Shown: positions 25,921 to 33,643, counted from the first letter of the stretch. The stretch is 64,000 bases of DNA from a bacterium (GCA_025774805.1 JALGZR010000003.1:1-64000); one strand, 5' to 3'. The notes: generated from the sequence alone by a model not told the origin. Program-made: numbers and translations.

Positions 25921-27594
25921 ATGGAGGGCCGGCGAGCGCTGGGGACGGTTCTGGGCATTCTCCTCGGGTGCGGTCTCCCCTCGGGCTGCGGGGACGAGAG
26001 TCCGACCCAGCCGAGCGACGAGAACGGCCCCGGGGACCCGACGGGAGCCGATACGACGGCGCCGGCGGCCGTGTCCGACCTCGCGCTGCGGAGAGTGGAC
26101 CAATGGGCCGCCACGGTGGCGTGGACGGCCCCGGGGGATGACGGGGCGGTGGGTACGGCCACGGGATACGATGTCCGGCACTCCCTGGCGGCCATCACGG
26201 ACGCGAGCTGGGACACCGCGATCCGGGTGAGAGCGGCGCCGAATCCGCAGGCGGCCGGCTCGACGGACTCCCTCTCCTTCCAGATCCCCAGCACCGACAT
26301 CACCTTTTACGTCTCTCTGAAGACCGTCGACGACGCTGGGAACTGGTCGGATCTGTCCAACGTCCTGGCCGTGACGAGTCCGGACGTGCTGCCCCCGGGG
26401 CAGGTCCAGGACCTGGCCGTGGTGTCGAGAACCACCACCTCCGTTTCGCTCACCTGGACGGCCCCCGGGGACAATCTCGGTGCGGGCCGGGCGAGCGCAT
26501 ACGATCTCCGCTACTCGACGACGGCCCTCTCCGAGACCACATGGGACGACGCGGTGCCGGTGAGCGGGTTGCCGCTCCCCCGGCCCGCGGGAGCCACGGA
26601 GACGTTCGAGGTCACCGGCTTGACGGCGGGCACTTTCTACTACTTCGCCTTGCGGGTCGCGGACGAGGTGCCCCGCTGGTCGGGGCTGTCCAACGTGCTC
26701 TACACGCCCACCGTTCCGCTTCCCCGTCCACCGGAGACGATCCTCGTTCCGGCAGGGGCTTTCACGATGGGGGACGGCGTGTCCACCTGCGGAGAAGACC
26801 AGCGGTCGGTGACGCTCACCCGGGACGTGGATCTGGGCCGCTACGAGGTGACCAATCAGGAGTACCTGGAGGCGGTCTGGTGGGCGTACTCGAACGGATA
26901 CGTGGCGGCCACCGCCACCTCGGTGATCGACAACCTCGACGGGAGCACCGTGGAGATTCTGGACCTCGATGATCCCGAAGGACAGAGTGAGATCGCCTTT
27001 CACGAGGGGATCTTCTATCTGCGGGACGCGGGCTGGGGGATCAACGGCGACCACCCGGTGAAGGAGGTGAGCTGGTACGGCGCCGCAGCCTACTGCGATT
27101 GGCTCTCGCTGATCGAAGGGCGGCCGCGCGCCTATGATCACTCGACGTGGGTGTGCAACGGAGGGGATCCCTACGGCGCGGCCGGATACCGCCTGCCCAC
27201 GGAAGCCGAGTGGGAATACGCGGGGCAGTTCGACGACGAGCGGGCGTTTCCCTGGGGAAACGAGTCACCCGACGACGAGAGGGCGAACTACCGGCTGGCC
27301 GTCGGTTGGACGACGGTCGTCGGGAGCTATCCGGGCGGACCGAGCATCTTGGGTGAGCTTCCCCACGACTTGGCCGGAAACGTGATGGAGTGGTGCAACG
27401 ACTGGCAAACGTGCCTGCTGGGGAATTCACCGAAGACCGATCCCCCCGGCCCGGCCGGCGGCACGAAGCGCGTGGCCCGCGGGGGCAGCCTGAGTGCCGG
27501 CGGGACCTACCTGCGCGTGGCGGACCGAGCCGGCTTCTACGAGCCGGAGAGAACGAGCCACACCATCGGTTTCCGGATCGTGCGCACTCGTTGA
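25921..27594 (+). CDS. Lipoprotein with two Fn3 domains and a formylglycine-enzyme-fold domain
   Basis: 557 residues. Lipobox LPSGC (Cys about residue 23) and an Asp/Pro/Gly linker precede two Fn3 repeats (about 50-155 and 160-260), each with an APGDDG/APGDN turn and ending LSNVL. Residues ~270-557 form an FGE/sulfatase-modifying-factor domain: ILVPAGAFTMGDG, VTNQEYLEAV, HPVKEVSWYGAAAYCDWLS, YRLPTEAEWEYAG, NVMEWCNDW and the final RGGS...IGFRIVR. The active-site cysteine pair expected after RGGS is absent (RGGSLSAGGTYLRVADR), so conversion of Cys to formylglycine is unlikely; a binding role is more plausible. It is surface or periplasm anchored and monocistronic, with a hairpin after the stop. 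Confidence 0.85.
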   Translation: MEGRRALGTVLGILLGCGLPSGCGDESPTQPSDENGPGDPTGADTTAPAAVSDLALRRVDQWAATVAWTAPGDDGAVGTATGYDVRHSLAAITDASWDTAIRVRAAPNPQAAGSTDSLSFQIPSTDITFYVSLKTVDDAGNWSDLSNVLAVTSPDVLPPGQVQDLAVVSRTTTSVSLTWTAPGDNLGAGRASAYDLRYSTTALSETTWDDAVPVSGLPLPRPAGATETFEVTGLTAGTFYYFALRVADEVPRWSGLSNVLYTPTVPLPRPPETILVPAGAFTMGDGVSTCGEDQRSVTLTRDVDLGRYEVTNQEYLEAVWWAYSNGYVAATATSVIDNLDGSTVEILDLDDPEGQSEIAFHEGIFYLRDAGWGINGDHPVKEVSWYGAAAYCDWLSLIEGRPRAYDHSTWVCNGGDPYGAAGYRLPTEAEWEYAGQFDDERAFPWGNESPDDERANYRLAVGWTTVVGSYPGGPSILGELPHDLAGNVMEWCNDWQTCLLGNSPKTDPPGPAGGTKRVARGGSLSAGGTYLRVADRAGFYEPERTSHTIGFRIVRTR

Positions 27595-29108: not shown

Positions 29109-29465
29109 TTGCGAACACCCGCCGAAGGGGGAGGTATCCGTCACTGGCTGAAGCACGCCTTCGCCGTGGACCCCCCCGGGCCGGCCGAACCGACCGAGGA
29201 GCAACGCCGGATCGCCGATCGGCTCTGTCAGTTGATCGTGCGTCGCCGGCTCACGTCTCCGGCCCTCCTCTATCTGGAGGTCGGGCGTCCCCTGAACTAC
29301 GTCGGGGCGCAGGTGTTGCACTTCTTCCGGCCGATCCTCACCGCCCTCTTCGACGCTCGAGGGTGCGAGGAGTTCGCGTCCTTTTTGGAGCGGCGAGGAT
29401 CGGTGGACTATTTGGTCGCTCGAATCGAATACTTCGAGGATGAGCGCGGGCGACGGGGATCGTAG
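29109..29465 (+). CDS. Small conserved-looking hypothetical protein
   Basis: 118 residues, no signal peptide. It is mostly one helical region with a basic start (RRIADRLCQLIVRRRLTSPA) and a distinctive hydrophobic core (LLYLEVGRPLNYVGAQVLHFF), ending with an acidic/basic tail. I recognise no named family. The apparent start is TTG at 29109; no ATG or GTG is available near a GGGGGAGG at about 29128, so the true 5' end is uncertain. The hydrophobic segment could be amphipathic membrane-associated. It lies 103 bp before the DUF6754 operon on the same strand and may be expressed with it. Confidence 0.5.
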   Translation: MRTPAEGGGIRHWLKHAFAVDPPGPAEPTEEQRRIADRLCQLIVRRRLTSPALLYLEVGRPLNYVGAQVLHFFRPILTALFDARGCEEFASFLERRGSVDYLVARIEYFEDERGRRGS

Positions 29466-29568: not shown

Positions 29569-31014
29569 ATGCGGCCGTTTCAAGCGCGGATGACTATCCG
29601 CCTGCCCTCATCGGCGGGATCTTTGGCCCTCGCGACGGCCGCCCTTCTGCTCGCCACCGGCCTCTCCTCCGCCCAGATCCCGACGGCTCCGTCCGCCGAA
29701 GGCGGTCCGGCGCCTCCCACGAACCTGACCGTCCGGGACCATCCTTTCGACAACGGCCGCGTGATCGATCTGTCCTGGACGCCGTCGGTGGATGATCCCG
29801 GCCCGGTCGTCGAGTATGCGGTCTATCGCTCCCTCACGGAGAGCGAGGCCCGCAACGCGGACACGGAACTTCGGACCAAGGCGATCCGCAGCGCCAAGGA
29901 GGAGGCCACCGCGAGAACGAGGGCGAGCGCGGCGGCGGAGGGTCTGAGCTCCCGGGACACGTCGACTCGTATCCGATCCGCGCGAAGAGACGCGGCCCGG
30001 CGTGCCGCCGCGGAAGTGGCGGCTACGGTGGATGTGTTGAACGGCGAGACCCGGTTCAAACTCATCTCGCGGCTCGCTTCCGGGGAGCGGTCGTTCTCCG
30101 TCGGCAACCTGAGTCACGAGGAGGGCTATTTCTTCCGGGTCGAGGCCCTGACCGAAGACGGACGGACCTCCGCCCCGCTTCTCAGCTCGCAGCCGTTCAT
30201 CCCGCGACGCCAGTGGTTCGACGGGGGTCGGTTCTATCTCTTCATCATCACCCTCATCTTCGGTGGCTCGGTGGTCTACTTCATCGCGAGGGCTTCGAGC
30301 GGGCAGACGATGAAGATCCGGAAGATCGCGGCCCTTGAGGCCGTGGACGAGGCCGTGGGGCGAGCCACGGAGATGGGACGCTCCTGCATCTACGTTCCGG
30401 GCATCCAGGACATGAACGACATCCAGACCATCGCCAGCATGACCATTCTCTCACGGGTGTCCCGGACCGCCGCCGGATACGACGTGAAGGTCCAGGTTCC
30501 CACCGCCCGGTCCCTCGTCATGACCACCGCCCGAGAGATCGTGGAGGCGGCGTTCCTGGCGGCGGGCCGTCCCGACTCCTACAATCGCGATCTGATCTAC
30601 TACGTGACCGACGAGCAGTTCGGATACGTGGCCTACCTGTCCGGTCTGATGGTGCGCGAAAAGCCCGCCACTTGTTTCTACATGGGAACCTTCTTCGCGG
30701 AATCGCTCATCCTGGCCGAGACCGGAAACTCGATCGGCGCGATCCAGGTGGCCGGAACCGCGATGCCGGCCCAGCTGCCGTTCTTTGTCGCGGCCTGTGA
30801 CTACACGCTGATCGGTGAGGAGTTCTTCGCCGCGTCCGCCTATCTGTCCGGATCCCCCGAAGAGCTCGGCAGCCTCAAGGGACAAGACGTCGGGAAGGTC
30901 ATCGTCGGAGTCATACTGCTCACCGGAGTCGCGTTGGCGACTCTGGCCTCGATCACGGGGTCGGAAGCGCTCGCCGAGGCCGTTCACTACCTCAGGTACA
31001 CCATCCTGACCTAG
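29569..31014 (+). CDS. DUF6754-domain membrane protein with Fn3-like domain (operon gene 1)
   Basis: 481 residues. Signal sequence 1-35; an Fn3-like domain (from about 50, NLTVRDHPFDNGRVIDLSWT) interrupted by a ~70-residue Ala/Arg/Glu-rich helix (about 85-155), then completed (FFRVEALTEDGRTSAP). A transmembrane helix (about 222-242, YLFIITLIFGGSVVYFIARA) leads to the ~200-residue DUF6754 domain, which starts KIRKIAALEAVDEAVGRATE. A hydrophobic C-terminal helix (about 443-462) ends the protein. The DUF6754 part has alternating beta/alpha character (CIYVPGIQDMNDIQTIASMT; LPFFVAACDYTLIGEEFF). ATG at 29569 follows GAGGAGG. Function is unknown; the gene heads a tight four-gene operon. Confidence 0.8.
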   Translation: MRPFQARMTIRLPSSAGSLALATAALLLATGLSSAQIPTAPSAEGGPAPPTNLTVRDHPFDNGRVIDLSWTPSVDDPGPVVEYAVYRSLTESEARNADTELRTKAIRSAKEEATARTRASAAAEGLSSRDTSTRIRSARRDAARRAAAEVAATVDVLNGETRFKLISRLASGERSFSVGNLSHEEGYFFRVEALTEDGRTSAPLLSSQPFIPRRQWFDGGRFYLFIITLIFGGSVVYFIARASSGQTMKIRKIAALEAVDEAVGRATEMGRSCIYVPGIQDMNDIQTIASMTILSRVSRTAAGYDVKVQVPTARSLVMTTAREIVEAAFLAAGRPDSYNRDLIYYVTDEQFGYVAYLSGLMVREKPATCFYMGTFFAESLILAETGNSIGAIQVAGTAMPAQLPFFVAACDYTLIGEEFFAASAYLSGSPEELGSLKGQDVGKVIVGVILLTGVALATLASITGSEALAEAVHYLRYTILT

Positions 31015-31025
31015 GAGCCCGACGG

Positions 31026-31724
31026 ATGAGACGCACTATTCCGGGCCTCATTGCCACGATCGTCGGATTCGTGCTGATCGTCGCCTACTTCATTCCCCAG
31101 ACACAGCAGTGGGGAGAAGTGACATCCATCTGGTTCGACATTCTGGCGGCAATCGCCTTCGTGCTCGGGGGCGGCAACCTGTTGAAGGTTCATCTCACCA
31201 AAGTATCGAGCCGGGTCAGCGGCTGGGGCTACTCCGTGATCACGGTCCTGGCCTTCGCGGTCACGTTGATCGTCGGGCTCTCGAAGTTCGGAATCAACCC
31301 GGCCGAGCTCTATCCCGACCGGCCCTGGTCGGGCAGTTACCGGGAGACGGGCAAACCGTTCTGGTGGCTCTACCAGTACGCCTTCGTGCCGCTCACCGCG
31401 ACCATGTTCTCGATGCTCGCGTTCTACGTCGCGTCCGCCGCCTTCCGCGCGTTCCGGGCGAGAAACGTCGAAGCCGTCATGCTTCTCGGAACGGCCTTCA
31501 TCATTCTCCTGGGCCGCACGTTCGCCGGCGTCTTTCTGACGAACTTCCTTCCCGACTTGCTGTCCGGACTGCGACTCGAGAACCTGACCGTGGACATAAT
31601 GCGGGTGTTCAACACGGCGGGTAACCGGGCGATCATGATCGGCATCGCGCTGGGAACGGCGTCGGTGGCGCTCAAGATCCTCCTGGGAGTCGATCGTTCC
31701 TTCCTCGGTTCGGGAAAGGAGTAG
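31026..31724 (+). CDS. Polytopic membrane protein (DUF6754 operon gene 2)
   Basis: 232 residues with about six transmembrane helices: LIATIVGFVLIVAYFI; IWFDILAAIAFVLGGG; GYSVITVLAFAVTLIVGL; FVPLTATMFSMLAFYVASAA; VMLLGTAFIILLGRTFAGVF; IGIALGTASVALKILLG. Loops are short apart from a ~35-residue Pro/Trp-rich loop after helix 3 (LYPDRPWSGSYRETGKPFWW). No family recognised. GGAG precedes ATG and only 11 bp separate it from gene 1; the next gene starts 3 bp downstream. Probably the membrane core of a complex with its neighbours. Confidence 0.75.
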   Translation: MRRTIPGLIATIVGFVLIVAYFIPQTQQWGEVTSIWFDILAAIAFVLGGGNLLKVHLTKVSSRVSGWGYSVITVLAFAVTLIVGLSKFGINPAELYPDRPWSGSYRETGKPFWWLYQYAFVPLTATMFSMLAFYVASAAFRAFRARNVEAVMLLGTAFIILLGRTFAGVFLTNFLPDLLSGLRLENLTVDIMRVFNTAGNRAIMIGIALGTASVALKILLGVDRSFLGSGKE

Positions 31725-31727
31725 ATC

Positions 31728-32591
31728 GTGTACGAATTCCTCGTCCGTTTGGACCGCCGCTGGATCTTCCTCCTGATGTTCCTCGCCGTCGCCGTCCCCA
31801 TCCTGCTCCAGGCCCAGTTCCCGGAGAAGCCGACCGGACTGGCGCGCGCCGTGTTCGACGAGATCGAAAAGCTGGAAGAGGGTTCTCGGGTGCTCCTTCC
31901 CTTCGACTTCGATCCGGCGAGCGAAGGCGAGCTCGGACCGATGGCCACGGCCTTCGTGCGGCACTGCTGCGAGAAGAAGCTGAAGATGTACTTCATGTCC
32001 CTCTGGCCGGTGGGGCCGCAGATGATCGACGACAACATCCAGAAGGTGATCCGGGAGGACTTCCCCCATCTGCAGTACGGGGAGGACTACGTGAACCTGG
32101 GCTACAAGTCCGGCATGGAGGGGGTCATCAAGGTCATCGTCACCGATCTGCGCCAGCTCTACACGACCGACTCCTTCGGCACCACGATCGACGCAATCCC
32201 GATGATGAAGGACATCGAGAACATTCAGCAGATGGACCTCGTCGTCAACGTCTCGGCCGGGTACGCGGGCACGAAGGAGTGGATCCAGTACGCGGCGACC
32301 CCGTTTCCGGACGAGATCCGGATCGTGGGCGGGTGCACGGGGGTCCAGGCTCCCCTCATGTACCCGTACATCCCCCAGCAGCTCCCCGGCCTCCTCGGCG
32401 CCATCAAGGGCGCGGCCGAGTACGAGAAGCTTGTCATGGACAAGTACGGAGGTGACCTGCCGGCCGGAAAGTACCTGGAGGGCCAGAGACGGATGGGACC
32501 GCAGCTCGTCGCACACGTCTTGATCCTCGTTCTCGTCGTCGTGGGCAACGCCGTCTACCTCACCGGTCGCAGGCGGGAGGCCGCCCGATGA
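31728..32591 (+). CDS. Membrane-anchored extracytoplasmic domain protein (DUF6754 operon gene 3)
   Basis: 287 residues. N-terminal transmembrane anchor (about 11-27, WIFLLMFLAVAVPILL), a ~220-residue soluble domain and a C-terminal helix (about 262-280, HVLILVLVVVGNAVYLTG). The soluble domain has alternating beta/alpha elements (RVLLPFDFDPASEGELGP, LKMYFMSLWPVGPQMI, VVNVSAGYAGTKEWIQYA) and resembles the general character of the DUF6754 domain in gene 1, suggesting related folds on opposite sides of the membrane. Two adjacent cysteines (HCCEKK) are notable. The start is GTG at 31728 with AAAGGAG at ideal spacing. The stop overlaps the next ATG. Confidence 0.75.
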   Translation: MYEFLVRLDRRWIFLLMFLAVAVPILLQAQFPEKPTGLARAVFDEIEKLEEGSRVLLPFDFDPASEGELGPMATAFVRHCCEKKLKMYFMSLWPVGPQMIDDNIQKVIREDFPHLQYGEDYVNLGYKSGMEGVIKVIVTDLRQLYTTDSFGTTIDAIPMMKDIENIQQMDLVVNVSAGYAGTKEWIQYAATPFPDEIRIVGGCTGVQAPLMYPYIPQQLPGLLGAIKGAAEYEKLVMDKYGGDLPAGKYLEGQRRMGPQLVAHVLILVLVVVGNAVYLTGRRREAAR

Positions 32592-33643
32592 AGCGCGAGA
32601 ACCTCGTCTGGACGGCGTTGTTCCTCGTGGGCGGCCTGTTGCTCGTGATCCGGGCGGGCTTCACTCCCCAGGGAATGGGCAAGGACTACGTCCGGGCCCG
32701 GACGATGGAGTTCGTCCAGGTCGAGTCGTCCCCCGAGCTCGGGGAAGAGCCGGGATCCACCCGGTGGATTCGGGTCGAGTCCGACGACGCCCTGGATCAC
32801 GACCTGACGGCCATTGGAGAGGATCGTCGGATCTCCTGGACCCGGTACGAGCCGGTCGAGGCCCGACTGTACTACGAGGCGGAGGCCGAGAATCCGGAAC
32901 AGACGGAGTATCGGCTCAGCGTGTCCCGCTCGATCGGAATCTGGGTGGCCGCCTTCTTCACCCTGGCGATCTTCTCGTTTCTCATCCGGGACAACCCGTT
33001 CTACCGCGTGGCCGAGTCGGTGGCGGTGGGCGTAACGGCGGCCTACTGGATGGTCGTCGGGTGGTGGAACGTCATCGTGCCCAACCTGATCGGAAAGCTC
33101 CATCCCGAGATGATCCGAAACTGGGCCATGCCGGGGCTGGAAGCCGAGATGGAGTGGCCGTATGTCGTTCCGCTCGTCCTGGGCGGGATGCTGCTCTGGC
33201 GCCTTTCCCCGAAGGGGGGCTGGATCGCCCGCTGGCCCATGGCGTTCATCATCGGCGTCTTCTGCGGCCTGCGCCTCATCGGCTTCCTCCATGCCGACTT
33301 TCTCAGCCAGATCCGCAACAGTATTCAGCCCCTCTGGGCGGTGGGCGCGGGGGCTGAGTTCATGTTCTGGGACTCGCTCCGCAGCTTGACTCTCGTCGGC
33401 GGAGTGCTCGCCAGCATCGTCTACTTCTTCTTCTCGATCGAGCACAAGGGATTCGTCGGCCGAACGGCCCGGGTGGGTATCTGGGTCCTGATGATCACGT
33501 TCGGCGCCGCGTTCGGCTACACGGTGATGGGGCGAATCGCGCTACTCGCCATCCGCCTCGAGTTCCTCTTCGACGACTGGCTGTGGTTGATCGACCCGGC
33601 GGGGAGCCGTTTGCCGGAGGCCGCATCCCTCCTCGGTCCGTGA
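32588..33643 (+). CDS. Polytopic membrane protein (DUF6754 operon gene 4)
   Basis: 351 residues. The first transmembrane helix (about 7-22) is followed by a ~90-residue acidic extracytoplasmic segment (RWIRVESDDALDHDLTAIGE), then about seven helices, including GIWVAAFFTLAIFSFLI, VAVGVTAAYWMVVGWWNVIV and VGIWVLMITFGAAFGYTVMG. No family recognised. The ATGA overlap with gene 3 indicates translational coupling. Together genes 1-4 encode two Rossmann-like domains, an Fn3 domain and about 15-20 membrane helices, consistent with one stoichiometric membrane complex of unknown activity. Confidence 0.75.
   Translation: MKRENLVWTALFLVGGLLLVIRAGFTPQGMGKDYVRARTMEFVQVESSPELGEEPGSTRWIRVESDDALDHDLTAIGEDRRISWTRYEPVEARLYYEAEAENPEQTEYRLSVSRSIGIWVAAFFTLAIFSFLIRDNPFYRVAESVAVGVTAAYWMVVGWWNVIVPNLIGKLHPEMIRNWAMPGLEAEMEWPYVVPLVLGGMLLWRLSPKGGWIARWPMAFIIGVFCGLRLIGFLHADFLSQIRNSIQPLWAVGAGAEFMFWDSLRSLTLVGGVLASIVYFFFSIEHKGFVGRTARVGIWVLMITFGAAFGYTVMGRIALLAIRLEFLFDDWLWLIDPAGSRLPEAASLLGP

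Follow-up and report, generated by a model that had tools for sequence, protein, structure and literature searches.

The operon at positions 29569-33643 of the window (the whole 64,000-nucleotide stretch of DNA that was analyzed) carries four membrane-protein genes on the + strand, g1 to g4, which form a conserved cassette co-dependent with a MutL-type ATPase and a protein here called bar. The reading that we hold about as firmly as we doubt it is that the four proteins constitute the membrane half of an ATPase-dependent machine energized via MutL-bar. Of the 386 bacterial genomes sampled, 103, or about one in four, carried the system; they belong to 67 families. Family names exist for DUF6754, Fn3, and MutL only, and five of its seven proteins carry none. 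DUF6754 was not mentioned in the literature searched, which also held nothing on MutL in connection with Planctomycetes. Because this gene set was found in no known kind of membrane system, we provisionally call the system categorically new, a label that could fall once its function is known.

Operon structure and conservation of the cassette

The original prediction of a four-gene membrane operon was correct in its coordinates, starts, spacing, and ribosome-binding sites (Table 1). The intergenic gaps g1/g2, g2/g3, and g3/g4 are 11, 3, and -4 bp, the last being an ATGA overlap, and Shine-Dalgarno sequences (GGAGG, AGGAG, AGGAG, and GGGAGG) precede g1, g2, g3, and g4, respectively. The assignment of g1 as an Fn3 plus DUF6754 protein was likewise confirmed, with both Pfam matches above cut-off: PF20539 (DUF6754) at E 5.8e-120 and 399.7 bits (cut-off 27), and fibronectin type III PF00041 marginally, at 25.3 bits (cut-off 25). 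Residues 45-216 of g1 adopt an Fn3 fold by VIA structure comparison (Z about 13). Family-averaged hydropathy gave g2 the six helices expected of it, and a transmembrane segment lies at each end of the soluble domain of g3. For g4, which had been described as an eight-helix protein, the multi-helix character stood but the count came out at seven to eight, the hydropathy profile marking six peaks and two extra hydrophobic stretches being read by eye.

Table 1. Features of the operon and of the gene upstream of it, in window positions
Feature	Position	Strand	Description
m0	29109..29465	+	Small (118 aa) and soluble, read here with a TTG start; elsewhere heads the conserved cluster
g1	29569..31014	+	Signal peptide, periplasmic Fn3 with helical insert, TM1, cytosolic DUF6754, TM2
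g1 residues 46-205	29704..30183	+	Periplasmic Fn3 domain with helical insert; variable part
g1 residues 244-443	30298..30897	+	Cytosolic DUF6754 domain, Rossmann-like alpha/beta
g2	31026..31724	+	Six TM helices, N-terminus in; cytosolic loop RAFRA-x-N-x-E conserved
g3	31728..32591	+	GTG start; TM, periplasmic alpha/beta domain, TM; DRR N-terminus, RRR C-terminus
g3 residues 31-256	31818..32495	+	Periplasmic alpha/beta domain (AlphaFold2 model, predicted topology)
g4	32588..33643	+	7-8 helices; cytosolic loops DNPxY..AE, SPKGxWI, YFFFSxEHKG conserved; periplasmic N-terminal region variable

No match to any Pfam or NCBIfam family was found for g2, g3, or g4, nor to any Pfam family for m0, and comparison of bar, MutL, g2, g3, and g4 with the sequences of solved structures gave no convincing match. 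Neither g2 nor g4 showed likeness to a known family or solved chain, or a transport signature. Within g4, residues 131-177 and 206-252 form a weak internal repeat (hhalign self-comparison, P 0.009), each copy of which comprises a cytosolic loop, a transmembrane helix, and a periplasmic stretch.

When about 85,000 species genomes were scanned, at least 547 confirmed relatives of the DUF6754 region emerged. The best 80 of these loci, which were fetched, came from Planctomycetota, Neomarinimicrobiota, Acidobacteriota, Zixibacteria, and Verrucomicrobia. The gene-neighborhood survey showed that the neighbors of DUF6754 are conserved in other genomes. Among the matches listed, g2, g3, and g4 followed g1 in 60 of the 66 loci whose downstream sequence reached 2.9 kb or more, and all four genes were present in 19 of 19 distant loci from other genomes (L112-L130). 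Tandem arrays of two to four cassettes also occurred (L085, L091, L095, L099, L103, L106-L108, L124, L128, L169, and L170). The four genes thus represent a conserved cassette and no local curiosity. Other neighbors, unrelated to one another in distant genomes (shikimate kinase, hydrogenase, RecO, sulfatase), were uninformative on function.

Several loci depart from the usual arrangement. At L169:1-12000 and L170:108-10144, three to four divergent cassettes of one genome stand in tandem. In a Neomarinimicrobiota locus (L069:5561-11368), restriction-modification-like genes occupy the place after g1 where g2-g4 would be expected, apparently because the cluster is split in this genome. In some Planctomycetia (L076:3468-6819, L062, and L176), bar and g1 lie together after an FtsY-like (SRP54-type) GTPase, with g4 elsewhere.

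The m0-MutL-bar partner

The original prediction missed the larger system to which the cassette belongs: MutL, bar, and m0 are also members, and m0, just 5' of g1 in the window, was omitted. Among the matches listed, m0-MutL-bar preceded g1 in 50 of the 53 loci that had 4 kb or more of upstream sequence, m0 measuring about 110-165 aa in related loci. The m0 of the window is 46-56% identical to the m0 preceding MutL in many Planctomycetota loci. It alone adjoins g1 in the window; MutL, bar, and a second m0 are located on another contig of the same genome.

The partner MutL passes PF13941 at 428 bits, above the cut-off, and the motifs TDCGSTTTKAI, GVDIGGATTDxFSVF, and SGGVLSHAP are conserved among 64 homologues. 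It is a long ASKHA protein of the MutL/GlmL type, and its phosphate-binding motifs are intact. It shares the fold family and the phosphate motifs with GlmL/MutL (PF13941, NF040745), and differs from GlmL in its length, at least about 600 aa compared with about 460, and in its partners, which are bar and the membrane cassette, with no glutamate mutase in the genome.

Among the 386 genomes, bar was found in 98 (63 families), all 98 of which also carried DUF6754; bar alone occurred in none (Fisher p 2e-86, computed without phylogenetic correction). A strong MutL match was present in 96 of the 103 DUF6754-positive genomes. Twelve DUF6754-negative genomes also had one, a short form (427-503 aa) in 10 of the 12; long MutL in the absence of DUF6754 was limited to G090 (85% complete) and G277 (90% complete, its genus shared with a DUF6754-positive genome). 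The link between cassette and MutL-bar persists where the two are unlinked, as in the genome of the window, and g1 and g4 lie apart in G139 and G386. The system was found in none of 14 well-known control genomes.

Glutamate mutase is the usual partner of MutL, and the PF13941 match could be taken to mean that MutL serves a B12-dependent mutase as annotated, its link with the membrane cassette being incidental. We consider this highly improbable. Glutamate mutase E was strong in only 7 of the 386 genomes, one of which was DUF6754-positive (1 of 103), and the conserved neighbors include no B12 enzyme. Furthermore, the DUF6754-linked MutL reached 231 bits against GlmL NF040745, far below the equivalog cut-off of 475, and its length sets it apart from the short forms, which include those beside glutamate mutase. 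Given this score and the rarity of glutamate mutase, the name MutL should not be taken to mean a glutamate mutase role here, and in nearly all of these genomes it suggests the wrong pathway.

A different alternative is that MutL-bar is a maturation or repair factor, such as a reactivase or chaperone, that assembles, loads, or repairs g1-g4 and stands outside the working cycle of a complex that is not itself driven by ATP. This is possible, if rather doubtful in our estimate. Characterized MutL/GlmL relatives are accessory proteins of B12-dependent mutases and not stand-alone enzymes (family knowledge and NCBIfam names), and an assembly chaperone fits the data as well as the ATPase-machine reading does. 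In two genomes, G062 and G080, DUF6754 and g4 were present and neither MutL nor bar was detected, which accords with an accessory role and counts against an ATPase-dependent machine; G034, G220, and G258 are less clear-cut exceptions to the co-occurrence. On the other side, the cassette contains no cofactor-binding motif or B12 enzyme, and the ATPase is retained alongside it in nearly all genomes.

The cassettes of these two genomes (G062:C1:3818019-3820986 and G080:C16:134700-138032) are possible MutL-independent variants.

The protein bar is 375 aa long and has a weak barrel-sandwich signature, its C-terminus weakly resembling a stretch of SPT5. It is encoded adjacent to MutL, and the two share one frame, as a fusion, in L035. 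A weak RnfC_N match of bar (17.4 bits, below the cut-off of 25.6), a weak NqrA match in a fused MutL-bar paralogue, and the analogous placing of a barrel-sandwich soluble subunit beside several multi-TM proteins raise the idea that the complex is a pump of the Rnf/NQR kind, driven by redox reactions or ions, in which bar would correspond to RnfC/NqrA. Such a pump is very unlikely: the matches fall below the family cut-offs over a short stretch typical of any barrel-sandwich domain, the cluster has no Fe-S or flavin subunit, unlike Rnf/NQR, and g2 and g4 have no conserved Cys or His set.

Fused MutL-bar paralogues of about 880-1045 aa occur at L161:8303-11368, where the protein has an additional N-terminal HTH, and as similar frames in L159, L160, L162-L168, and L178. 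They lie beside thioesterase, PcrB, or DAHP synthase genes, away from membrane cassettes, and these neighbors were uninformative on function.

Membrane faces and the two alpha/beta domains

AlphaFold2 models of g1 and g3 were confident (pLDDT 92 and 96). The signal peptide of g1 places its Fn3 domain outside and DUF6754 inside, and the positively charged ends of g3 place its domain in the periplasm. The two alpha/beta domains are thus predicted to occupy opposite faces of the membrane, in agreement with the original prediction.

Conservation differed by face. The DUF6754 domain had a mean identity of 70% and measured 197-201 aa in every one of 137 relatives; its invariant residues include E378, E384, D411, and E418. 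Identity was 61-77% across the short loops that g4 exposes to the cytosol and the second such loop of g2. The periplasmic stretches of g1, g2, and g4 showed 26-43% identity and ranged from a few to 308 aa (g1 alone, about 26% and 5-308 aa across the family), and the periplasmic domain of g3 was in between, at 52%. The predicted cytosolic face is therefore rigid and conserved and the periplasmic face variable, suggesting that the constant side faces the ATPase and the variable side looks outward. In some Planctomycetaceae, g2 carries an insertion of 380-440 aa in a predicted periplasmic loop (L034:4214-6040, L049:6848-8698, L065:6884-8830, and L078:2934-4748).

Variable ectodomains combined with a conserved cytosolic domain would also suit a sensory or structural envelope complex, in which components of the envelope are recognized by Fn3 and other ectodomains, with g1 passing the signal on to the cytosol. 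We regard this as very unlikely, since the cluster includes no kinase, cyclase, or regulator domain and two multi-TM subunits with conserved charged loops would be unusual for a sensor.

The DUF6754 and g3 domains had been thought alike in secondary-structure pattern and possibly related in fold. The likeness itself stood: in the AlphaFold2 models, both follow the order H-E-H-E-H-E-H-E-H-E-H-E-H, and in both the final strand is short and continues into the final helix. Relatedness did not find the same backing, profile-profile comparison of the two domains being non-significant (P 0.36 and 0.077). Alternating alpha/beta is a common arrangement, and the shared order of elements alone is thus no proof of relation. 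With hhalign there was no significant sequence homology for DUF6754/g3, g2/g4, or other pairs, even with 120-180 homologues, and on these profiles we do not claim DUF6754 and g3 as inverted paralogues.

A fold search with the whole g1 model was filled by Fn3 matches. The g3 model gave weak Rossmann-like matches (VIA Z 7.7-9.3), the best being 1kjn (Z 9.3), with TrkA at Z 8.4; there was no Foldseek match below 1e-3 and no profile match to a known Rossmann family. The alpha/beta arrangement of the g3 domain resembles that of MT0777 (1kjn), the CODH epsilon subunit, the RCK domain of TrkA/KefC, and transhydrogenase domain III, although the structural likeness is weak and no sequence relation was found. 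The signal for a conserved ligand site along the C-terminal sheet edge was weak in g3 (p 0.013) and not significant in g1 (p 0.10), and a conserved site at this position was rejected.

Proposed machine and possible exchange of cassettes

Under the ATPase-machine reading, MutL-bar would contact the cassette and couple ATP to it. MutL and bar would dock on the cytosolic side, where g1 presents its DUF6754 domain and g2 and g4 their short conserved loops, and ATP binding and hydrolysis would alter the conformation of the g1-g4 complex. In such a complex, g2 and g4 would provide the membrane core, and g3 together with the variable ectodomains of g1, g4, and sometimes g2 would relay the movement to the periplasm or take up substrate from there. 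As a first guess, the process may be the transport or translocation of an envelope component. One MutL-bar pair could serve several exchangeable cassettes, by analogy with group II ECF transporters, whose single energizing module is shared by several substrate units. Unlike in ECF transporters, the conserved neighbors here include no ABC ATPase or EcfT, each cassette comprises four proteins, and a transport role for the cassette is hypothetical.

More tentatively, the system might represent a new class of primary active machine, driven by an ASKHA (MutL-type) ATPase in place of an ABC, P-type, or AAA ATPase. Several exchangeable complexes of four proteins, with related alpha/beta domains on both faces, would then draw their power from a single ATPase-adaptor pair. 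If MutL-bar does power a membrane complex, this would be a new way of coupling ATP to a membrane process. The planctomycete Planctopirus limnophila, for which a transposon-insertion map has been published, may offer a starting point if it carries the system; the main text of its essential-gene paper does not name these genes (PMC10632474).

Two to six DUF6754 genes or cassettes were present in 50 of the 103 DUF6754-positive genomes, mostly with one full-length bar. A single MutL-bar for several cassettes would suit an assembly factor shared among them as well as a shared energizing pair.

The family of the window offers a possible case of cassette exchange. In G001 and G002, m0-MutL-bar is followed by a native linked cassette. 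The genome of the window (G000) and G004 carry an orthologous m0-MutL-bar (bar 78% identical), about 7 kb behind which contain no g1-g4, and a Planctomycetota-like cassette located elsewhere in the genome. In a tree of g1+g2+g3, the cassette of the window grouped with the G004 copy (L019 and L029 being a single record) within a clade composed mainly of Planctomycetota/Neomarinimicrobiota (40 tips, support 0.98), and the second cassette of the window's genome (C137) grouped with other family members. The native cassette may have given way to one gained by lateral transfer while the ATPase half stayed in place, a reading drawn from five genomes whose completeness ranges from 67 to 100% and two of which have an estimated contamination of 5-9%.

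The possibility that the window is a misbinned contig was rejected, because its tetranucleotide profile fits the other contigs of its genome (r 0.83-0.84) as well as its own halves fit each other (0.82). Elsewhere in the window, the translation of 25921-27594, taken by itself, reads as a lipoprotein-like protein in which Fn3 appears to be repeated and one domain looks like formylglycine-generating enzyme.
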